Shown here one piece after another: positions 7,601-57,961 of a DNA stretch of 64,000 bases (its first letter is position 1; each line of letters begins with the position of its first letter). The notes under the pieces are model-generated. The model did no database searches. It saw only the letters and a list, made by a program, of their open reading frames with translations, and was not told the DNA's origin. The position numbers and the translations under genes are program-made. The stretch comes from Polynucleobacter sp. 15G-AUS-farblos (GTDB lineage: Bacteria; Pseudomonadota; Gammaproteobacteria; Burkholderiales; Burkholderiaceae). The stretch lies in NCBI RefSeq assembly GCF_018882445.1, contig NZ_JACVOM010000005.1:124001-188000 (forward strand), written 5' to 3'.

Positions 7601-8959
7601 ATGACCCTTTTACAAGAATTTGGGCGTTTTATAGAAGCTAGTTACCAAACTAGCTTCTCTGCTGCAACGCTCCATAGTGCTCGCCGTGCTTTGTTGGACT
7701 GGCACGGCGCCCTCATTGCAGGTGCCGATACCGAAGCCGCTTCTCGATTAAGAGAGGCGTATGGGGATGAGTTTGGTGTGGGGCATTGTTCAGTTGCGGG
7801 CAGTCAAAAAAAGGTATTTGCGAGAGCAGCTGCATTTATGAACGGCACCATCTCGCATATTGCAGAATTTGATGACATCTTTAGAGATGGTGCTTACCAT
7901 CCTGCATGCCCAACTATTTCTGCAGTGTTTGCTTTAGCAGAGTCACGTAATGATTCGGTTGAGGATCTTTTAGCTGCCATCATTATTGGCTATGAAGTCT
8001 CTACACGGATTAGTAAGGTCATTCAACCAAGTCACTATCAATATTTTCATACGACTGGGACTGTAGGCGTATTTGGTGCCGCTGCAGCTTGTGCTCATCT
8101 ACTGAGATTAAATGCTTCTCAGGCGTGTGATGCTCTGGCTACAGCTGGAACCTTTGCCAGCGGCCTGCAGCAGGCGTTTCGTTCTGACTCCATGACTAAG
8201 CCTATGCACCCAGGCCATGCAGCTGAGGTGGGCTTGAACGCAGCTTTACTGGCTCAAGCTGGCATGACGGGCACTCCCGATTTACTTGAAGGTGATGCTG
8301 GTTTTGGTGCTGCTCTTTGTGAAAATCCGAGATGGAATGAGTTGTTTATCGATCTCGGTTCAAGCTGGAACATCGAGCAAATGACCTTTAAGAATCATGG
8401 ATGTTGTGGACATAATTTTCCTGCGATTGATGCTGTATCGCACTTGCTTAATGAACACCAAATTGATCCAGAGCAAATTCAGAAAATTCGGGTGGGTGGC
8501 TATAAGGCCACTACAGAAGTATGTCGCTATGTTCATCCTCAAACACCATTCGAGGCTAAGTTTAGTTTGACCTATACCGTATCCGCTCGGATTATTCTCG
8601 GGCGAGTACGAGAGCGCGCATTCTTAGAAACAGCGCTAGCTAATCCGAAGATTCGGTCCATGGAAGAGAAGATTGAGTTGAGTATTGATCCTGAATGCGC
8701 TGCAAAATTTCCGCTTCACCGATCAGCGAAGGTGGAGATTGAAATGAATGATGGTTCGATCTATGCGCACCATCAACATACTCGCCATGGAGATCCAGAC
8801 GAGCCTTTAACGGATCAGGAGTTAGTGGATAAATTTCACGAATTGGCAGAGCCAAGGGTTGGCCTACAAGTAGCTCAAACCCTCTCGGGTGAGCTGCTCG
8901 GGGGATCTGGTTTGTCAGTGCGAGATTTAACTAAATTATGGTCAAAAATGAGTTATTGA
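7601..8959 (+). CDS. MmgE/PrpD family protein
   Basis: Member of the MmgE/PrpD family (2-methylcitrate dehydratase, cis-aconitate decarboxylase and relatives), 452 residues, the family's usual length. Recognisable stretches are FMNGTISHIAEFDDIF near residue 78, EVSTRISK, HTTGTVGVFGAAAACA, PMHPGHAAEVGLNAALLAQ and FKNHGCCGHNFPAIDAV. The family dehydrates or decarboxylates tricarboxylates, but many members, including this group found in Bug-rich operons, have no assigned substrate. It starts 3 bp after the Bug gene, so it is translated from the same message. Confidence 0.85.
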   Translation: MTLLQEFGRFIEASYQTSFSAATLHSARRALLDWHGALIAGADTEAASRLREAYGDEFGVGHCSVAGSQKKVFARAAAFMNGTISHIAEFDDIFRDGAYHPACPTISAVFALAESRNDSVEDLLAAIIIGYEVSTRISKVIQPSHYQYFHTTGTVGVFGAAAACAHLLRLNASQACDALATAGTFASGLQQAFRSDSMTKPMHPGHAAEVGLNAALLAQAGMTGTPDLLEGDAGFGAALCENPRWNELFIDLGSSWNIEQMTFKNHGCCGHNFPAIDAVSHLLNEHQIDPEQIQKIRVGGYKATTEVCRYVHPQTPFEAKFSLTYTVSARIILGRVRERAFLETALANPKIRSMEEKIELSIDPECAAKFPLHRSAKVEIEMNDGSIYAHHQHTRHGDPDEPLTDQELVDKFHELAEPRVGLQVAQTLSGELLGGSGLSVRDLTKLWSKMSY

Positions 8960-9006
8960 CCATTTAAATAACTAAAATAATCTTAGTAAATCATCAGGTA
9001 AATATC

Positions 9007-9792
9007 ATGACTTTAGGACGCTTAAAACTACCTTCACTGAAAGATCAAGTGACGCCAGAAGAGTGGAAAGCTCGGGTCGATTTGGCCGCTTGTTATCGCT
9101 TGATAGCGCATTACGGTATGTCGGACATGATGGCCAATCACATCACGATTCGTGTGCCTGGTGAAGAGGGTGCTTTTTTAACGAATCCCTACGGCATGAT
9201 GTATGAAGAAATGACGGCATCTTGTTTTCTGAAAATCAATCATGAGGGAGAGGTTTTATTTAAACCTGACTTTGGTGACTTGAACTATGGCTTTAATAAG
9301 CCAGGGTATATTTTGCATAGCGCCGTTCATAAAGCACGCCCTGAAGTAGATTGCGTCATTCATACGCACACACCTGCAGGTATGGCGATCTCTTCTCTCA
9401 AGTGTGGCTTGCTCCCCATCAATCAAACAGCGATGCGCTTCCTAAAAATTAGCTACCACGACTATATGGGCGTGGTGTTAGATATGGCCGAACAAGAAGT
9501 ATTGGTTCGTGATTTAGGTAATGCTGAGGCGATGATTTTGCGTAACCACGGTTTATTAACTGTGGGTAGAACAGTCGGCGAAGCTTTTAACTGGATGCAT
9601 CGCCTTGAAAGCTCCTGCCGTGCTCAGTTAGCGGCAATGGCCTGTAATACACCTCTCCAAGAAGTTTCCCCTGCGATATTGGAGGAGACTTATATGAACT
9701 ACCAACCGCAAACTCGCAGGCCTTATGGTTTGATGGAGTGGCCTGGTTTGTTGCGTATGGTTGAGCGCATGGATCCCAGTTTTAAGGACTAA
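9007..9792 (+). CDS. Class II aldolase/adducin family protein
   Basis: A 261-residue class II aldolase/adducin-domain protein. Metal-binding histidines are seen in VIHTHTPAGMAIS (about residues 118-122) and in ILRNHGLLTVG near residue 181. The N-terminal MSDMMANHITIRVPG and LTNPYGMMYEEMTAS are typical of the non-sugar-phosphate branch. Family members are zinc aldolases, epimerases or decarboxylases of small hydroxy acids. It probably cleaves or rearranges a hydroxylated intermediate of this operon; the exact reaction is unknown. Confidence 0.85.
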   Translation: MTLGRLKLPSLKDQVTPEEWKARVDLAACYRLIAHYGMSDMMANHITIRVPGEEGAFLTNPYGMMYEEMTASCFLKINHEGEVLFKPDFGDLNYGFNKPGYILHSAVHKARPEVDCVIHTHTPAGMAISSLKCGLLPINQTAMRFLKISYHDYMGVVLDMAEQEVLVRDLGNAEAMILRNHGLLTVGRTVGEAFNWMHRLESSCRAQLAAMACNTPLQEVSPAILEETYMNYQPQTRRPYGLMEWPGLLRMVERMDPSFKD

Positions 9793-9920
9793 GTCAAGAG
9801 TAGCCAATTTGATGTAGCATCACTACTGGAGTTTCTTAATCCGATCTCTAGTAAGTGGCAGCAAGCCAAGTAGTAACAATAAAAATATAAAAGCATCATC
9901 GCTAATAGCTGGAGACAAAT
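9793..9920 (+). other. Intergenic gap inside the first catabolic cluster
   Basis: A gap of 128 bp, the largest inside the 1-18.5 kb cluster. No ORF, strong hairpin or clear promoter is seen. Only a Shine-Dalgarno (GGAG at about 9912) near the next start is evident. It could hold an internal promoter for the second half of the cluster. Confidence 0.4.
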
Positions 9921-51184: not shown

Positions 51185-51400
51185 ATCTAAACATTCAGTT
51201 ATTTACGAAATTATAATCAATATATATCTGCTTTTATCTTAATTAAGATTACTCTAAATTACTCCCATGGAAACCCATGACATTCTGGATTGGCTGGGAT
51301 TGAGGGGTGGAAATGGAGCGATTGAGCCTAGATTTTCCGCTTCGTTAAAAGGGTTATTACCGCTAAATTGCGGATCTGTTGTCCCTATAGGAGAAATGCG

Positions 51401-51733
51401 ATGGACGTAGTTTTGGAGAATAAAGAAGTCTTAGAGCCTGAATTGAAAGTTTTCACTGAAAACCGTGTGAAATTTTCCTTAAAGCGCCTTATTTGGCTAG
51501 TAAGAAAAATCAAGGTGAAGTACTCAGCTGTCAAACTTTCAAGCACCGCATTTAATCAAAATTGCTTGATTGAATTACAAACTTTTGATCATCGTCAAAT
51601 TGAGGTAAGCGTCACTGCTAGAGACCGTCGCACGGCCCTAGAGATGGGGCTAAAGAAGGCCTACAAGCACCTTCAAAAGGCGATTAATAAAGCACAGAAG
51701 TATGGGCGCCTCTCTAAAAATGCTTATGCATAG
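51401..51733 (+). CDS. HPF/RaiA-like ribosome-associated protein
   Basis: Small basic protein of 110 residues resembling the ribosome hibernation factor fold. It has IKVKYSAVKLSSTAFNQNCLIELQTF followed by the RaiA-like EVSVTARDRRTALEMGLKKAYKHLQKAINKAQKYGR. It may bind the ribosome in stationary phase, but it is divergent from the main HPF. The ATG at 51401 is preferred over 51368 because AGGAG is 7 bp upstream. Confidence 0.65.
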   Translation: MDVVLENKEVLEPELKVFTENRVKFSLKRLIWLVRKIKVKYSAVKLSSTAFNQNCLIELQTFDHRQIEVSVTARDRRTALEMGLKKAYKHLQKAINKAQKYGRLSKNAYA

Positions 51734-51757
51734 AACAATTATCATAAAAGTGCTTTA

Positions 51758-51763
51758 TATGAT
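51758..51763 (+). promoter_or_regulatory. Putative -10 box of the riboswitch transcript
   Basis: TATGAT at 51758-51763 places transcription start near 51770, immediately before the aptamer 5' strand. A good -35 hexamer at 17 bp is lacking (weak candidates only), so this is tentative. Confidence 0.35.
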
Positions 51764-51770
51764 CTAATAG

Positions 51771-51875
51771 CTTATTAAGCGGGGAGTAGCCTGCCCAGCA
51801 ATGGGTCCCATATATCGTCAATACGACCAACCAGTCCGGTATATGGGTATTAAGTTAGGGCAAGACCATTTACTT
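51771..51875 (+). promoter_or_regulatory. yybP-ykoY-type manganese riboswitch aptamer
   Basis: The conserved 5' loop GGGGAGTAGC (51781-51790) and its 3' partner GCAAGACC (51860-51867) frame the motif. Between them are P2 (GCCC-AGCAAT-GGGT, 51793-51806) and P3 (CCCATATA / TATATGGG, 51807-51814 with 51840-51847). The P3 loop begins with the conserved TCGTCAATACG (51815-51825). P1 pairs 51776-51782 with 51866-51872 with one mismatch. P4 is very short. The aptamer ends about 45 bases before the start codon of the RND operon. Known members bind Mn2+ and turn on manganese exporters. Identification is by eye. Confidence 0.8.
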
Positions 51876-51887
51876 TTGAATAAATGG
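51866..51887 (+). terminator. Expression-platform hairpin exclusive with aptamer P1
   Basis: CCATTTA and TAAATGG form a perfect 7-bp stem (loop CTTTTGAA). The 5' arm is the same sequence that forms the 3' strand of P1 in the aptamer, so the two structures cannot coexist. It is followed by CTAAATTTT and further T-rich sequence. It may act as a weak terminator or a ribosome-hindering stem that ligand binding removes, giving an ON switch. Confidence 0.55.
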
Positions 51888-51918
51888 CTAAATTTTGAAC
51901 TCTACTTTTTTATCTCAT

Positions 51919-53190
51919 ATGTTTTCTGTAAGATACTTATTTGCTGGCACAGTTTTGTGTTTACTCGTATGGTCCTCTGGATCGGCTTTTGCTCAATCAC
52001 AAAAAGCATTTCCACTAAATGAATTAATTGGAATTGCGCTTGAGTCTAGCCCTCAGGTATTGGCAGCAAGAGATCAATCAAAAGCAATTCGGGGTCAGGT
52101 ATCGATTGCACGCGCCATTCCTAATCCGGAATTTGAGGTAAGCACGGGACAGCAGCGATCGGTTACTAGCCCGTTAACTGTCGGCAATGTCTCATCTTGG
52201 GCAGTAACACAGCCATTAGATATGCCTTACACCCGTTTCCCGAGGGTCAATGCTGCAGAGGCGAATCTGCGAGCTGCTGAAGCAACTAGAGTGGCATTTG
52301 AAATTGAAACCATTTCTCGGGTTCAGCAACGTTTTTATGAGCTCATGCGTCGTGAGGCAGAGTCTAGAGCCGCTGATGAGGACTTTAACCTAACAAAACA
52401 AATCCGCGATCGCATGCAGGTTCGGTATGACGTGGGAGATACGGCTCGCTTTGAGTTGATTCGTGCTCAAACAGAATTTCTGAATGCCCAAATTGCCCAG
52501 GAATCGAGTCGCCTTAGGGTCGATCAAGCGCGCAGCCAGTTAAGGCAGGTGGTTGGTCATGTCTTACCAGCCGATTTTAAGGTGATCGCAGAGCAGCCTC
52601 AGATCGAATTATTACCACCTCTGAATATCTTAATGGCGGAAATTCAATCACAGAGTCCTGACTTGCAAAAAGCAAAAGCTGAAGTAGAGGCAAGCGAATC
52701 TAAATTGAGTTTTGAGAAGAACTCGCGATTGCCACGTCTCTCATTTAAGGCATCACAGTACAACGATCCAAACTTTACTGATCGACTTTATGGTTTGGTA
52801 GTCAGTATTCCGATTTGGGATTTTAAGAGTGGACAAGTTGCCGAAGCAGAAGCCAATGCATCAAAAGCGAAGAATCAATTAAATGCACAAAGTCAAAATC
52901 TGGAGCAGCAGCTTGAAACTGCGTACAAGCTGTATCAGATGGCAAGTTATCAAGTGAAGGTTTTGGATCAAGAGGTCGTAGAGCTAGCCTTTAGTGCAAG
53001 ACGAATTGCAGAAGTCTCCTATCGTTATGGTGAACGTGGCATGTTGGAATATTTAGATGCGCAAAGAACCTTTCGTGCTGCGCGTAACGATTTAATTAAA
53101 GCGAGATTTGATTTGGCATCGGTCGTAACCGAGATTCAACGATTAAGAGCAAATCCAGAGTGGTTAGCCAAGATAGAGGGTGGCAAGTAA
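51919..53190 (+). CDS. Outer-membrane factor of heavy-metal RND efflux (TolC/CzcC family)
   Basis: TolC-family outer-membrane protein, about 423 residues, with signal peptide ending SAFAQS. Two OEP-type repeats are visible; the helical hairpins contain RVQQRFYELMRREAESRAADEDF and YRYGERGMLEYLDAQRTFRAARNDLIKA. The frame opens at a TTG (51895), and neither TTG nor ATG 51919 has a clear Shine-Dalgarno, consistent with a controlled leader; the ATG gives the better signal peptide. First gene of the efflux operon behind the manganese riboswitch. Confidence 0.85.
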   Translation: MFSVRYLFAGTVLCLLVWSSGSAFAQSQKAFPLNELIGIALESSPQVLAARDQSKAIRGQVSIARAIPNPEFEVSTGQQRSVTSPLTVGNVSSWAVTQPLDMPYTRFPRVNAAEANLRAAEATRVAFEIETISRVQQRFYELMRREAESRAADEDFNLTKQIRDRMQVRYDVGDTARFELIRAQTEFLNAQIAQESSRLRVDQARSQLRQVVGHVLPADFKVIAEQPQIELLPPLNILMAEIQSQSPDLQKAKAEVEASESKLSFEKNSRLPRLSFKASQYNDPNFTDRLYGLVVSIPIWDFKSGQVAEAEANASKAKNQLNAQSQNLEQQLETAYKLYQMASYQVKVLDQEVVELAFSARRIAEVSYRYGERGMLEYLDAQRTFRAARNDLIKARFDLASVVTEIQRLRANPEWLAKIEGGK

Positions 53191-54536
53191 TGAAGCAAGA
53201 AATCATCACAATGTTCTCCAAAGCCAAGCAATGGATTAGCACGGGTATTAATCAAGCGCTCTTCTATGGCAAAGACTGGCTGAATCAGGTTGCGACATAT
53301 CAAACACAGTTGTATGCAACAGCCCATCAGTGGCTTGCCAATAAGCTGCCAGCAGCTACACAGCGCTACGATCGATCCCCGCAGTGGCTAAAGCGGAGCT
53401 TTTTCTATTTGCCTTGGTTGCTCGCTTTTTTGATTGTGCTGAATTATTTCAACGTATTTGACCGTAGTCCTGCTATCAAATCAGTACAGGATCCCAACGT
53501 TGTTGTGGTGAATGAAGATTTGCGAAAAATGGTTACCGATGGCAAGGCACAGATTGCGCCTTTTGTTGAGGAGCTTAGAGCTTCAGGACGCATCGATTTC
53601 AATGAGCTTAATCTATCTCGTATTGGTGCCAACGTCACCGGAAGGGTTTCAGAGATTTTGGCTGTGCCTGGGCAGATCGTAAAGCAGGGTGATGTATTGG
53701 CAAAAATTACCTCTACTGAATTAACCCAATCGCAATTGGCATTTCTAAAAGCAAAGAGCGCAAGTCAATTGGCTGACCAAGCTGCTGATCGTGCCCGAAT
53801 TCTCTTTAAAGAAGACGTGATTGCATTGGCAGAATTACAAAAGCGTGAGGCAGAGTCTAGTAGTGCTAAAGCTGAATATCGTGCAGCCAATGATCAGTTG
53901 CGAGTCCAAGGCATGAACCAGATCAATATTGATCGTTTAGCTAAATCAGGCCTGATTGAGTCTATTAACAATGTGATCGCCACCATCCCCGGTGAGATTG
54001 TGGAGCGCAAGATTAATAAGGGGCAGGTTGTGCAGCCAGCGGATGCTTTATTTACAGTAGCCGATTTATCAACCCTCTGGGCTATTTCTGAAGTACCAGA
54101 AAGCAACTCCTACTTAATTCGCAAGGGTCAAAAGGCTTCTTTAATCATTCCAGCTTTACGCAATCAAGAGATTGAGGGTACGGTTGCGCATGTTGACTCT
54201 ATCGTTAATCCACAGACTAGAACAGTTGTGGTTCGAATGGAGCTACCAAATAAAGAAGGGCAAATTAAGCCTGGAATGCTGGCAACGATGCTGATTGAGA
54301 GCCAGCCTATTGATAAGTTGGTTGTTCCAGTTGCTGCTGTGATTCGTGAAGACAATCATGATCACGTCTACGTTCGTGTAGATGACGATTTATATCGCAT
54401 GGTGCCAGTCAAGCTTGGACCGGAAGGTAGAGGGTTTAGACCTGTGATTTCTGGTTTGAAGGAAGGCCAGGAAATCGTGATTGATGGTGCTTACCATCTC
54501 AATACTGAGCGTAAGCGTCAGCTGAGTGGCGGTTAA
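53190..54536 (+). CDS. RND efflux periplasmic adaptor (HlyD/CusB-CzcB family)
   Basis: Membrane-fusion protein, about 448 residues. A 60-70-residue N-terminal extension precedes the membrane anchor (FFYLPWLLAFLIVLNYF, about 70-87), unlike most adaptors, which begin with the anchor. Then come the barrel-sandwich segment GRVSEILAVPGQIVKQGDVLAKI, a long hairpin and the beta-barrel ALFTVADLSTLWAISEVPES. The ATG shares a base with the preceding stop (TAATG) after GAGGGTGG. A GTG at 53160 is in frame but unlikely. Confidence 0.85.
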   Translation: MKQEIITMFSKAKQWISTGINQALFYGKDWLNQVATYQTQLYATAHQWLANKLPAATQRYDRSPQWLKRSFFYLPWLLAFLIVLNYFNVFDRSPAIKSVQDPNVVVVNEDLRKMVTDGKAQIAPFVEELRASGRIDFNELNLSRIGANVTGRVSEILAVPGQIVKQGDVLAKITSTELTQSQLAFLKAKSASQLADQAADRARILFKEDVIALAELQKREAESSSAKAEYRAANDQLRVQGMNQINIDRLAKSGLIESINNVIATIPGEIVERKINKGQVVQPADALFTVADLSTLWAISEVPESNSYLIRKGQKASLIIPALRNQEIEGTVAHVDSIVNPQTRTVVVRMELPNKEGQIKPGMLATMLIESQPIDKLVVPVAAVIREDNHDHVYVRVDDDLYRMVPVKLGPEGRGFRPVISGLKEGQEIVIDGAYHLNTERKRQLSGG

Positions 54537-54539
54537 CAC

Positions 54540-57500
54540 ATGATTGAAAGACTTGTCCGGCTATCGCTTCAACAGCGTTTACTAGTTGTCATCATTGCTG
54601 TCGTATTGTTTGTTGCGGGTTTATTAGCAACTAAGCGACTATCGGTCGACGCATTTCCAGATGTAACCAATGTGCAAGTACAAGTTGCTGCTGAAGCACC
54701 TGGTAAGTCACCTGAAGAAATCGAGCGTTTTGTAACAATCCCGATTGAGTTGGGTATGACGGGTCTGCCGGGCCTCACCGAGATGCGCTCATTAAATCGC
54801 AATGGTATCTCCATCATTACCCTGGTCTTTACCGAAAAAACGGACATCTATTTTGCACGTCAATTGGTGACCGAGCGCTTGATTGAAGTTGCATCCAAGA
54901 TGCCAGAAGGCATTACTCCAGTGCTTGCGCCACCCTCTACCGGATTGGGTGAGGTGTATCAATACACCTTAGATCATCCCTCGGATAGACATCGTGAGTT
55001 GAGTGTGGATGAGTTATCAGATCGCCGAGCTGTTCAGGATTGGATTGTTCGCCCGATGCTGCGATCTATTCCAGGTGTTGCAGAGATTAATACTCAAGGT
55101 GGTTATGCGAGGGAGTATCAAGTACTCGTTAATCCTGAACGCTTACGCCATTATCAAATTAGCTTGCAAGATGTCTATCAAGCTCTCGCTCGTAACAATG
55201 CGAACTCGGGCGGTGGGCAGCTACCAAGTTATGCAGAGCGCTACTTGATCCGCGGTCTTGGTCTGATTACCAAGCCTGAGGATATTGGCAAAATTATTCT
55301 TAAAGAAGTTAAGGGAATCCCTGTTTACGTTAAGAACGTCGCTGAAGTAACAATCGGAAGCGAGATAAGACAGGGTGCTGCTATTAAGAATGGCTATACC
55401 GAAAGTGTCGCCGGTATTGTGCAAATGATTCGTGGCGGTAATGCTAGAGAAGTAGTGAATCGTATCAAGCTAAAGGTTGCCGAAATCAATGAGGGCAAAT
55501 TATTGCCGGATGGATTACAGATCGTCCCGTTCTATGACCGTACAGATCTAGTTAATGCAGCCATGTTTAACGTGGCCAAAGTGTTGATTGAGGGCGTCAT
55601 TCTCGTCATTATCTTGCTGTTCTTATTCTTGGGTGACGTTAGGTCTTCCTTGATTGTGGTTGCAACGCTAATACTGACCCCGCTACTAACCTTCTTGGTA
55701 ATGAATCGCTATGGTATTTCAGCGAACTTAATGTCATTAGGCGGCCTTGCAATTGCGATCGGTATTATGGTCGATGGCTCCGTCGTTGTCGTTGAGAATA
55801 CCTTTGCTAAATTGGGCGAACGCTTAAAAGCGGGTGAGTCTAAAAACCGTATTATTTTGGAAGCAGCTACTGAGGTTGGTAAACCAGTCTTGTTCGGTGT
55901 TGGCATCATCATTCTGGTATTTATGCCTTTACTCTCGCTAGAGGGTATGGAGGGCAAGATGTTTGCTCCGATGGCTATTACCATCGCCATCGCTTTGGCA
56001 ATCTCACTGCTCTTATCATTCACGCTATCCCCTGTCTTATGTTCATACATCCTTAAAGGTGGAAGTGAAGATGACACTAAGATCGTTAAAAAAATGCGTG
56101 CACCCTATGAGCGTTGGCTGCACTGGAGTCTTGCTAATCCTAAATTAGTTGTTAAACGATCTTTCATTGCTTTAGGCCTAAGTCTTGTTGGCTTTGTATT
56201 ACTGGGTAAGGCATTTATTCCGGTTATGCAGGAGGGATCAATTACCCCTGTTATTGTCCGCGCCCCCAATATCTCTCTAGATGAGTCCATTAAATTAGAG
56301 TTTGAGGCAATCAAACGCATCATGACCATTCCTGGTGTAGAGATGGCTGTGTCACGCTTAGGTAAGGGTGAGTCACCAGCTGATCCTGGTCAGCCAAATG
56401 AATCAGATCCGATTGTGACTCTTAAGCCTTTAGGTGATCGAGACCATAGCCAAGAAGAGATTGCACAACAGATACGAGAGAAATTGAAAACTTTGCCTGG
56501 TATTGAGTTGGCAATTTCTCAACCGATTGCTGCTCGTGTAGATGAGATGGTTTCAGGTGTGCGTTCACAGGTGGCGGTGAAGATTTTTGGTGAAGATCTC
56601 GCTGTATTACAAAAACTAGGCTCGCAGATCGGCCAAACCCTGATCAAAATGAAGGGCAGTAATGATTTGCGTATTGAGCAAGCATCTGGCCAAAACTATT
56701 TGAATATCAAAATTGATCGTGATGCGATCGCACGCTACGGTATTAATGTTTCTGATGTCAATGAAGTGATAGAAACGGCTATTGGTGGTAAACAAGCAAG
56801 TACTGTTTATGAGGGGGAGAGACGTTTCCCATTGGTATTGCGTTATCCCACATCTTATAGAAACAAGATTGATGCGATTGAAAATATTATTTTGCATTCA
56901 CCAGATGGAGCGCAAGTCTTAATGCGTGACTTAGCTGAAATTTCCTTGGTGGAGGGTCCAGCACAAATATCTCGCGAGTCTGGTAAGCGCCGCCTAGTGG
57001 TTGGTGTCAACGTCGAGGGTCGCGATTTGGGAGGCTTTGTTAAAGAGGCCCAAGAGCTCATTGCTAAAAATGTCGAGCTTCCTCAAGGCTATACATTGCA
57101 GTGGGGCGGCCAGTTCGAGAATATGCAAAGAGCGATGGCGCGTCTCATGATTATTATTCCGCTCACGATCTTGGCTATTTTCTTTTTGCTATTCATGCTG
57201 TTTAAGTCGCTTCGCCTAGCCAGTTTGATTATTTTGGTATTGCCATTTGCCTCTATTGGCGGAGTATTCGGTCTCTTTATTACTGGTGAGTATTTGTCGG
57301 TTCCTGCTGCAGTGGGCTTTATTAACTTATGGGGAATTGCCGTTCTCAATGGCGTGGTCTTAATATCGTTTATCAAGCAATTACGTGAAGATGGTTACAG
57401 TATGGAAGATGCTTTGTTGCACGGATGTGGCCATCGATTTAGGCCGGTCATGATGACTGCTTCTGTGGCGATGTTGGCTTTGGTGCCTATGTTGTTCTCC

Positions 57501-57635
57501 GGCGGTCCTGGCTCTGAGGTCACCCGCCCATTAGCAGCGGTTGTGATTGCTGGTTTGGTTACGTCTACCGCATTAACATTGTTGGTATTGCCAGTCTTGT
57601 ATAGATGGTTTGAGGATAAGGAGATAGAAGCATGA
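54540..57635 (+). CDS. Heavy-metal efflux RND pump (CzcA/CusA family)
   Basis: Inner-membrane RND pump of 1031 residues. The two halves carry RLSVDAFPDVTNVQVQVAAEAPG and the usual 12 transmembrane helices. The helix-4 proton-relay motif reads AIGIMVDGSVVVVEN (406-420). The first Asp of the CzcA-type D-F-G...D-G motif is Ala, as in copper/silver pumps, while the VDG half is CzcA-like. Metal specificity is therefore not assignable from the motif; the upstream riboswitch suggests manganese. The start is 3 bp after the adaptor stop. Confidence 0.9.
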   Translation: MIERLVRLSLQQRLLVVIIAVVLFVAGLLATKRLSVDAFPDVTNVQVQVAAEAPGKSPEEIERFVTIPIELGMTGLPGLTEMRSLNRNGISIITLVFTEKTDIYFARQLVTERLIEVASKMPEGITPVLAPPSTGLGEVYQYTLDHPSDRHRELSVDELSDRRAVQDWIVRPMLRSIPGVAEINTQGGYAREYQVLVNPERLRHYQISLQDVYQALARNNANSGGGQLPSYAERYLIRGLGLITKPEDIGKIILKEVKGIPVYVKNVAEVTIGSEIRQGAAIKNGYTESVAGIVQMIRGGNAREVVNRIKLKVAEINEGKLLPDGLQIVPFYDRTDLVNAAMFNVAKVLIEGVILVIILLFLFLGDVRSSLIVVATLILTPLLTFLVMNRYGISANLMSLGGLAIAIGIMVDGSVVVVENTFAKLGERLKAGESKNRIILEAATEVGKPVLFGVGIIILVFMPLLSLEGMEGKMFAPMAITIAIALAISLLLSFTLSPVLCSYILKGGSEDDTKIVKKMRAPYERWLHWSLANPKLVVKRSFIALGLSLVGFVLLGKAFIPVMQEGSITPVIVRAPNISLDESIKLEFEAIKRIMTIPGVEMAVSRLGKGESPADPGQPNESDPIVTLKPLGDRDHSQEEIAQQIREKLKTLPGIELAISQPIAARVDEMVSGVRSQVAVKIFGEDLAVLQKLGSQIGQTLIKMKGSNDLRIEQASGQNYLNIKIDRDAIARYGINVSDVNEVIETAIGGKQASTVYEGERRFPLVLRYPTSYRNKIDAIENIILHSPDGAQVLMRDLAEISLVEGPAQISRESGKRRLVVGVNVEGRDLGGFVKEAQELIAKNVELPQGYTLQWGGQFENMQRAMARLMIIIPLTILAIFFLLFMLFKSLRLASLIILVLPFASIGGVFGLFITGEYLSVPAAVGFINLWGIAVLNGVVLISFIKQLREDGYSMEDALLHGCGHRFRPVMMTASVAMLALVPMLFSGGPGSEVTRPLAAVVIAGLVTSTALTLLVLPVLYRWFEDKEIEA

Positions 57636-57961
57636 TGGAGGTCAAGGCGGTTATACGCCCTAATAAATTAGCTACATTAAGGACAGCCTTGCTGGAGATG
57701 CCAGAGTTTCCTGGGATGACAGTATTTAAGGTTGAGGGTTGTAGTGCGCCCTCTAAAACCAATAAATCAACTATTAAGGATGAGCTCACGGATTATTCGG
57801 CAAAGATCAGGATTGAGATTGTTTGCAGTGCCGATGTTGCTGATGTCTTAATGGATAAGATCGTTAAAGTATGTCAGACAGGGCAGGTTGGTGATGGTGT
57901 AGTTTGGTGCACTCCAGTACCCAAGGGCTATTTCATTGCAAAGTCTACTGGCTCAATCTAG
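57632..57961 (+). CDS. PII-like regulator linked to the RND pump
   Basis: A 109-residue PII-superfamily protein. It starts MEVKAVIRPNKLATLRTALLEM, has a divergent T-loop segment (VEGCSAPSKTNKSTIKDELTDYSAKIRIEIVC) and ends DGVVWCTPVPKGYFIAKSTGSI. It lacks the PII uridylylation-site context. A PII branch (PII-NG) linked to heavy-metal RND pumps is described in the literature, and this matches its position. Its start overlaps the pump stop by 4 bp. It may sense nucleotide or metal state for the pump. Confidence 0.82.
   Translation: MMEVKAVIRPNKLATLRTALLEMPEFPGMTVFKVEGCSAPSKTNKSTIKDELTDYSAKIRIEIVCSADVADVLMDKIVKVCQTGQVGDGVVWCTPVPKGYFIAKSTGSI

Follow-up and report, generated by a model that had tools for sequence, protein, structure and literature searches.

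Using computational analysis of a 64-kb window of the genome of Polynucleobacter sp. 15G-AUS-farblos (the window is the whole stretch analysed, and all positions are given in its coordinates), we found a leader that, judged by sequence comparison, almost certainly forms a genuine aptamer of the Mn2+ (yybP-ykoY) riboswitch class, of a subtype missed by Rfam. The aptamer, a four-way junction at 51772-51876 recognised by a permissive RF00080 match, alignment and covariation, lies together with its switch hairpin (51772-51887) upstream of an operon (51895-57961) for an outer-membrane factor (OMF), a membrane fusion protein (MFP), a heavy-metal efflux resistance-nodulation-division (HME-RND) permease and a PII-like protein; these and the other window elements assigned below are on the + strand. 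Aptamer structure, conservation, layout and gene associations were established by comparison. It is very likely that the operon is controlled by Mn, and we consider it probable that, taken as a whole, the Mn2+ riboswitch turns on a tripartite HME-RND pump which exports Mn2+. The original prediction of a Mn riboswitch before an HME-RND operon is supported by the structure and its covariation, the intact metal-site loops, the layout of the expression platform and the conservation in the genus.

Motifs and Rfam scores of the window leader

Three motifs named in the original prediction are present in the order it gave, namely GGGGAGTAGC at 51781-51790, TCGTCAATACG at 51815-51825 and GCAAGACC at 51860-51867. 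The first comprises the GG of the P1 5' strand and loop L1, the second position is that of loop L3, and GCAAGACC contributes a part of the inner P1 helix as well as the P1 3' strand (CC at 51866-51867). Between them are placed the P2 hairpin (51793-51806), the P3 arm with L3 UCGUCAAUACG (51807-51847; L3 51815-51825) and P4 (51848-51857), which is weak in the window species.

At the gathering threshold, Rfam gave no match anywhere in the 64-kb window. In a permissive search of 51650-51960, RF00080 was the sole match, covering the full span of the model (1-177) with 19.3 bits and E=0.0016; the gathering score is 45 bits, a cut-off for detection rather than a property of the structure. Across the 2.2-Mb genome, the window leader is the top RF00080 match (E=0.0027), the runners-up scoring 12.5 and 8.8 bits. 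The fold of the leader is slightly better than those of shuffled sequences (z=-1.91, 7/200 equally good). Because the fold only mildly beats the shuffles and the match to Rfam is weak, the single sequence hints at the riboswitch without deciding the matter.

Homologous leaders and covariation

We took 40 upstream regions, 33 at orthologues of the permease (two with a partial permease) and seven at paralogues of 38-42% identity. Leaders were gathered by the L1 and GCAAGACC motifs, the latter lying within the collecting pattern, and L3 was not among the search terms. The motif pair was found before the OMF gene in 27 of the 33 orthologue loci, which together with the window gives 28 leaders from one freshwater genus, Polynucleobacter; among the remaining six, L053, L054 and L055 have no motif, L065 has a decayed copy, and the contigs of L062 and L063 end before the leader. 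At the paralogues (L066-L072) the motif search gave two overlapping matches at L066 only, which lie almost 5 kb ahead of the RND gene and which we took as chance.

L1, L3 (CGWCADTHCG) and GACC are invariant or almost so in the alignment, and GGGGAGTAGC is the same in 28/28 leaders; since L1 and GCAAGACC were search terms, their invariance is partly by construction. Onto the alignment we drew the four-way junction by hand and found 88.9% of the cells paired, versus 82.7% for shuffles and no more than 44% when the partners were slid. The covariation score was 0.296 versus 0.177 in shuffles, a value that 0/500 shuffles reached, counts that are not probabilities because the leader sequences are related. 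Compensatory changes fall mostly in P2 (both sides changed in 2/5 pairs, 99.3% of cells paired), P3 (7/10 pairs) and P4 (5/5 pairs with a two-sided change in some sequence, 71.9% of cells paired), and pairing is lowest in P4, the small P3 tip helix and the outer P1. Covariation supports the four-way junction P1-P4, and both L1 GGGGAGUAGC and an L3 with an invariant Mn-site adenosine are present. The original prediction was to be refuted by a low covariance score together with an absence of compensatory changes; the RF00080 score is low, yet two-sided changes were found at 19/33 pairs. As these 28 homologous leaders fit the yybP-ykoY four-way junction, we regard the identity of the riboswitch as settled despite the Rfam miss; a rejection based on the Rfam gathering null alone was overturned by them.

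We take A51785 to be the A-minor adenosine A10 of the yybP-ykoY crystal structures. The role of A10 in these structures is described in PMC6754395 (papers cited here by PMC number were consulted in excerpts). The same source reports Mn2+ bound through an adenosine N7, that of A41 in Lactococcus lactis and A48 in Xanthomonas oryzae, within the L3 sequences UCA41AU43UC and ACA48U49ACU52, respectively. Compared with these loops, A51820 corresponds to the Mn-binding A41/A48, and it is the same in 28/28 leaders.

From the collected leaders, including that of the window, we built a covariance model, R1, which gives the window leader 101.6 bits, a score for a sequence that is part of the model. By comparison, RF00080 scored 24.4 and 28.8 bits in two of six Polynucleobacter relatives (L044, L057, L061, L217, L221, L132) and was absent at E<=0.5 in the other four; one genus leader before a TerC gene reaches just 28.8 bits with RF00080. 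At G089 C3, R1 and RF00080 find the same element, there above the RF00080 cut-off. Overall, the gathering score misses the subtype at 7/7 loci tested (the window and the six relatives). RF00080 underscores or misses Polynucleobacter leaders, and annotation pipelines will therefore overlook such riboswitches.

Expression platform and start codon

How might the aptamer be coupled to the operon? A putative -10-like box, TCTAAT (51763-51768, within TGATCTAAT), is proposed from its spacing to the aptamer; a sigma-70 consensus scan did not pick it up. In 13 of the 18 RND leaders shown, TGATCTAAT stands 12-15 nt upstream of GGGGAG (not in L056, L057, L058, L061 and L129), and because it precedes the GGGGAG of the aptamer at this distance, a transcription start at P1 is suggested, probably ~7-12 nt downstream of TCTAAT on the 5' side of P1.

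The likely expression platform is a switch hairpin, CCATTTA...TAAATGG (51866-51887), located 7 nt upstream of a TTG start and mutually exclusive with P1, as the two share the P1 3' strand and the hairpin uses the CC of GACC. The hairpin, with 5-8 pairs, was found in 30 of the 31 leaders folded, L056 being the exception, and in L061 and L129 both of its arms are changed jointly to CAGTTTT/AAAACTG, with only the second C of GACC used. In the calculated ligand-free ensemble of the window leader, the switch hairpin forms with p=0.99 and the GG:CC of P1 with p=0. An intrinsic terminator as platform was considered and rejected, since the scan found none at the position of the switch hairpin, which is itself of low stability (-4.6 kcal/mol); for the same reasons we prefer translational control, and we infer that the switch is of the ON type and acts on translation. 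When the window leader is folded without ligand, L1 (51781-51790) pairs in the minimum-energy structure with CUCUACUUUUU (51899-51910) just past the TTG; this modelled pairing is not obvious in the sequences of relatives and is possibly a species-specific second switching element.

The OMF gene would start at TTG 51895 or at the in-frame ATG 51919, and most relatives have an in-frame TTG at the equivalent place. The distance of about 45 bases from riboswitch to operon in the original prediction needs correction: GACC ends 27 nt before the TTG and 51 nt before the ATG. In relatives with a long spacer (L034-L052), a CCCCAAATTGGGG-like palindrome and a GATAAT box often lie ~75-135 nt past GACC, before an alternative ATG; neither was seen in the window.

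The operon and its pump

The operon consists of the OMF gene (TolC/OEP family, 51895-53190; PF02321 E=6.5e-45, TIGR01844 below cut-off), the gene of a periplasmic adaptor, a CzcB/CusB-like MFP (53190-54536; PF16576 E=9.1e-56, TIGR01730 above cut-off), that of an HME-RND permease, Hmy (HME3b)-like (54540-57635; TIGR00914 with 1108.4 bits at a cut-off of 701.45, and PF00873), and that of a PII-like protein, which overlaps the permease stop codon (57632-57961; PF00543 E=2.4e-13). All four genes overlap or sit at most 4 bases apart. The OMF/adaptor/RND operon was correctly foreseen, the fourth, PII-like gene was missed, and 53190, where the original prediction stopped, is merely the end of the OMF gene. 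With the curated RND score, the adaptor and the OMF in one operon, the system is a tripartite HME-RND pump of the CusA/CzcA family.

Full-length orthologues of the permease, 33 with the window included, occur at 81-100% identity in the 81 genus genomes, besides fragments. Identity is 61-69% to hmy-like RNDs, ~46% or less to the next RNDs of the family and 41-42% or less to the genus paralogues, so that the nearest kin is HmyA rather than Czc, Cus or Zne. The nearest permeases outside the genus (61-69%) mostly share the gene order and sometimes have a PII-like gene. The match in Cupriavidus metallidurans CH34 is 64% identical and sits at the published hmyA place, as matched by position and by the gap before the RND gene in a record without gene annotation; there, hmyA is parted from hmyB by IS1088 (PMC2864759, PMC7060636). 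As separate observations, a PII-like gene adjoins Hmy-like pumps in several families, resembling the PII-NG/Czc association, and in G673 repeated blocks of tRNA genes (L154:1179-1493 and 8630-9884; 14 matches, several with equal scores) flank an Hmy-like pump operon.

In CusA, the Cu(I) site is formed by the methionine triad M573-M623-M672, with E625 (PMC8092243). In our alignment, M573/M623/M672 become V571/E621/E669 and E625 becomes D623; the methionine triad of CusA-type Cu(I)/Ag(I) pumps (HME4) is absent. E621 and E669 are conserved in the genus orthologues and in the aligned g3 and g24 relatives, D623 is Thr in g3 and g24, and V571 varies. Since these residues replace the methionine triad, the metal site speaks against a soft monovalent ion and, as far as can be judged from sequence, fits a hard divalent one without singling out Mn2+.

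Distribution and history within Polynucleobacter

R1 matches 36 of the 81 genus genomes, at 37 places. Judged by position and downstream sequence, 29 of these lie before an OMF/RND operon (in G074 the contig ends inside the OMF gene), and three are a decayed copy before the operon (G061), a copy at a broken OMF gene whose pump is missing (G017) and a fragment (G001). Four lie before TerC genes (G056 by Pfam; G027, G029 and G042 by eye), and a family search added two TerC leaders (G278, G203), making six Polynucleobacter genomes with the switch before TerC. The last place, in G062, is before a LysR gene beside TerC genes. This second Mn-riboswitch-like element (L080:2560-3667, 29.6 bits with R1), in which L1, L3 and GCAAGACC are recognisable by eye, directly precedes the gene of a LysR-type regulator with TerC genes on both sides on the other strand; it would be unusual for a transcription factor gene to carry a Mn riboswitch.

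A scan of a contig collection with the OMF protein returned 50 loci; the named isolates, including P. hirudinilacicola, P. yangtzensis, P. sinensis, P. aenigmaticus and P. necessarius, are all Polynucleobacter, and the rest are environmental assemblies. R1 matches 41 of the 50 loci, 38 of them at >=79 bits and three more weakly (L187 63, L212 28.7 and L222 26.7 bits); nine have no R1 match, P. brandtiae being one example, and two of these nine (L231, L235) do not hold the leader region. One locus, L224 (CALPOM020000029.1), is titled Thermoflexus hugenholtzii and carries a Polynucleobacter-like pump operon (RND 90%), so it is probably mislabelled or from a mixed bin. Broken pump genes (fragmented frames, stops, RND gone) were seen at L074, L131, L133 and G369:C1:559731-561239, in genomes that keep a strong R1 match of 76-111 bits.

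In a tree of 46 permeases the genus pumps form one clade. Riboswitch presence on this tree takes four changes, with the basal G346 lacking the switch, and would fit one gain followed by three losses (L053 and L144; L054 and L055; L065, decayed). TerC leaders of the genus score ~78-84 bits with R1, those of other genera at most 48 bits, which makes a move of the switch between TerC and the pump inside the genus plausible.

Riboswitch targets and pumps outside the genus

Is a Mn riboswitch before an RND pump a common arrangement? Among 398 family genomes, R1 matched 100, at 105 places, and downstream DNA was taken for 20 of these, 15 in other genera and five in Polynucleobacter. Pfam assigned six of the other-genus places: Na_Ca_ex (L114, L122), TerC (L125, and L126 as second gene), GDT1 (L128) and MntP (L121). 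Inspection by eye suggests the same CaCA type for L115-L120, in agreement with similarity in the case of L117 and L120 (L113 and L184, the same places), and a MntP-like gene with a disturbed frame for L123; L124 and L127 have no assignment. Of the five genus places, L130 and L132 are TerC genes, L129 is an RND operon without damage, and the operons at L131 and L133 contain broken genes. In the wider order, RF00080 matches 72 of 200 genomes, and the 30 RF00080 loci returned fit the usual targets listed in the original prediction: GDT1 at 24, CaCA at four, no assignment at two and RND at none, where one of the four CaCA loci is just 30% similar and one of the two without assignment is short. RND parts were found neither at these 30 loci nor at the 15 other-genus R1 places. 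In the samples examined, a Mn riboswitch before an RND pump is a peculiarity of Polynucleobacter.

The leaders of 17 same-family pumps outside the genus (61-69% identity) were searched as well. L134-L141 were searched with R1 with filters off, giving at best 10.3 bits (E 1.6), and L134-L140 also with RF00080 at E<=1; for L147-L155 we used R1 at default filters and Rfam at its gathering threshold, which misses the Polynucleobacter leaders too. Upstream of one g3 pump (L137:7083-7237), matches to animal microRNA models appeared on both strands, almost certainly an artefact of a long palindrome.

Neighbourhood and other Mn export genes

The common order in relatives is a LysR gene (NhaR-like, on the opposite strand), TerC, a 121-aa open reading frame (ORF), the riboswitch and the pump operon, the TerC gene being a TerC-Usp fusion in the one locus tested. 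TerC lies upstream in the same direction in 21 of 34 genus pump loci, counting the window and contig-truncated loci, and upstream in 32 of the 50 OMF-scan loci, a set that overlaps the 34. In the window, only 183 bases (51185-51367) separate the NhaR-like LysR gene from the 121-aa ORF, with no TerC gene; this small ORF (51368-51733), conserved upstream of the riboswitch, has no Pfam family above cut-off. MntP was found above cut-off in 0 of the 81 genus genomes, with one weak match below it. We also considered a riboswitch on the GDT1 gene of the window genome (L083) and discarded it, as the best match (9.9 bits, E 0.45, both strands matched) gave no signal above noise.

Discussion

On Mn2+ binding, the direction of switching, translational control and Mn2+ transport, we propose the following course of events. 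Transcription would begin at the aptamer. Without Mn2+, a hairpin that joins the CC of GCAAGACC to the GG in TAAATGG would form immediately ahead of the OMF start codon and hold down translation or early elongation. In the presence of Mn2+, docking of L1 and L3 would stabilise P1 (GG:CC with weak extensions), the hairpin would be blocked, and the OMF-MFP-RND-PII operon would be expressed. The Hmy-type pump, with carboxylates at two of the three CusA methionine positions, would then export excess Mn2+ across both membranes, and possibly related hard divalent ions too.

Several observations weigh against this course of events. Most serious is that the searches described above found no such leader at the 17 same-family pumps outside the genus; the pump family is therefore not tied to Mn in general, and its substrate could be broader. 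The role of Hmy is called unknown in PMC7060636, which lists the HME3b class under 'monovalent cations', and a table in PMC2864759 appears to put Hmy under divalent metals. The window leader (19.3 versus 45 bits) and the six relatives stay below the RF00080 gathering score, and the leader alignment has no excess of further pair types (41 versus 39.0 in shuffles, 104/500 as high). Several apparently intact operons (L053, L054, L055, L144, L212) have lost the switch or carry a decayed copy of it, and some broken pumps (L074, L131, L133) have kept it. No Shine-Dalgarno sequence is visible at the TTG start, many relatives have an alternative ATG ~160 nt past GACC, and L047 has a stop codon between the TTG position and the downstream ATG; because of the alternative ATGs and this stop codon, the true OMF start is uncertain. 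Finally, GDT1 is present in 81/81 and TerC in 79/81 genus genomes, so the pump is not the sole candidate Mn exporter.

Might the switch sense Mn2+ and control a pump that chiefly carries a different divalent metal (Co, Ni, Zn or Fe) or a broad range, with Mn as a cue or one substrate among several? We consider this unlikely, though it is the most probable of the alternatives: in Cupriavidus-like, Ralstonia-like and other Proteobacteria, the gene order at pumps of this family is mostly identical and no riboswitch was found, another CzcABC, accompanied by a PII-NG gene in Geobacter, is Co-responsive (PMC7726332), and the carboxylate site (E621, D623, E669) could take several hard or borderline divalent ions. 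Against this, those riboswitch targets that were assigned in the order's other genera belong to Mn-linked families, and a TerC gene frequently adjoins the operon; moreover, Mn control would be of little use unless the pump relieves Mn. It is very improbable that the aptamer is a variant responding, in keeping with the pump, to some divalent metal different from Mn2+: neither L1 nor the L3 adenosine that donates N7 has changed, and the genus leaders before TerC genes score ~78-84 bits with the same model, although yybP variants with altered ion specificity are expected according to a review (PMC7266159).

Least probable of all, we believe, is a real riboswitch with weak control of the operon, for instance a relic of an earlier TerC leader, the operon being driven from another start. 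The losses and decayed copies before intact-looking operons, the intact copies before broken pumps, the TerC gene upstream in many species and the longer spacers with an alternative ATG in relatives could all be explained in this way, but the leader immediately precedes the OMF gene, and aptamer and switch hairpin are kept where permeases are 84-97% identical to that of the window. An Mn2+ riboswitch that turns on an Mn2+-exporting pump remains the reading we prefer.

Relative to known systems, the leader shares with RF00080 the four-way junction, L1 GGGGAGUAGC, the Mn-binding adenosine of L3, the 3' strand GCAAGACC and P1 as switch helix (PMC6754395), and differs in being a genus-specific subtype below the gathering score and before an RND operon. 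The pump resembles Cupriavidus HmyFCBA (HME3b) in its OMF-MFP-RND order, the 64% identity of the RND, the shared E621/E669 residues and a signature of transmembrane helix 4 that is the same up to one I/L, whereas no riboswitch was found near the g3 (Cupriavidus-like) pumps, D623 is Thr there, and the PII-like gene was not found within ~600 nt after the g3 pumps tested. In Cupriavidus, hmyF precedes hmyC (PMC7060636); here, there is no room for it between leader and OMF gene, a search elsewhere not having been made. A PII-like gene also stands beside the HME-RND operon of Geobacter GSU2134-2137 (CzcABC with PII-NG), where regulation is linked to Fur and Co (PMC7726332) rather than to a Mn riboswitch; our PII-like protein is assigned by Pfam PF00543. 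MntP, GDT1/UPF0016, TerC/Alx and CaCA (BP3410) have the same riboswitch class upstream and predicted Mn export (PMC7011215, PMC8546581), and they are single inner-membrane proteins, unlike the tripartite pump over both membranes found here. In the titles and abstract beginnings among the literature matches listed there was no earlier report of such a pairing of switch and pump; the target lists of Dambach 2015 and Price 2015 were not checked, so absence from print is not established.

Bacterial Mn export has been described mainly for single inner-membrane proteins, namely MntP, GDT1, TerC, CaCA, CDF and P-type ATPases. If our reading is true, a Mn-controlled tripartite pump would be another export route, by which Mn is removed past the outer membrane, and such a pump would be controlled directly by a Mn2+-sensing RNA. 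It would also provide a testable substrate for the Hmy/HME3b pumps, whose role was called unknown in 2020 (PMC7060636). Tentatively, and with somewhat less confidence than even, we speculate that HmyA-type (HME3b) RND pumps are trans-envelope Mn2+ exporters of which the Polynucleobacter copy was put under a Mn2+ riboswitch. The small Polynucleobacter genomes and the named isolates offer natural comparisons between species with the switch on TerC, with the switch on RND, and with either switch or pump lost or broken.

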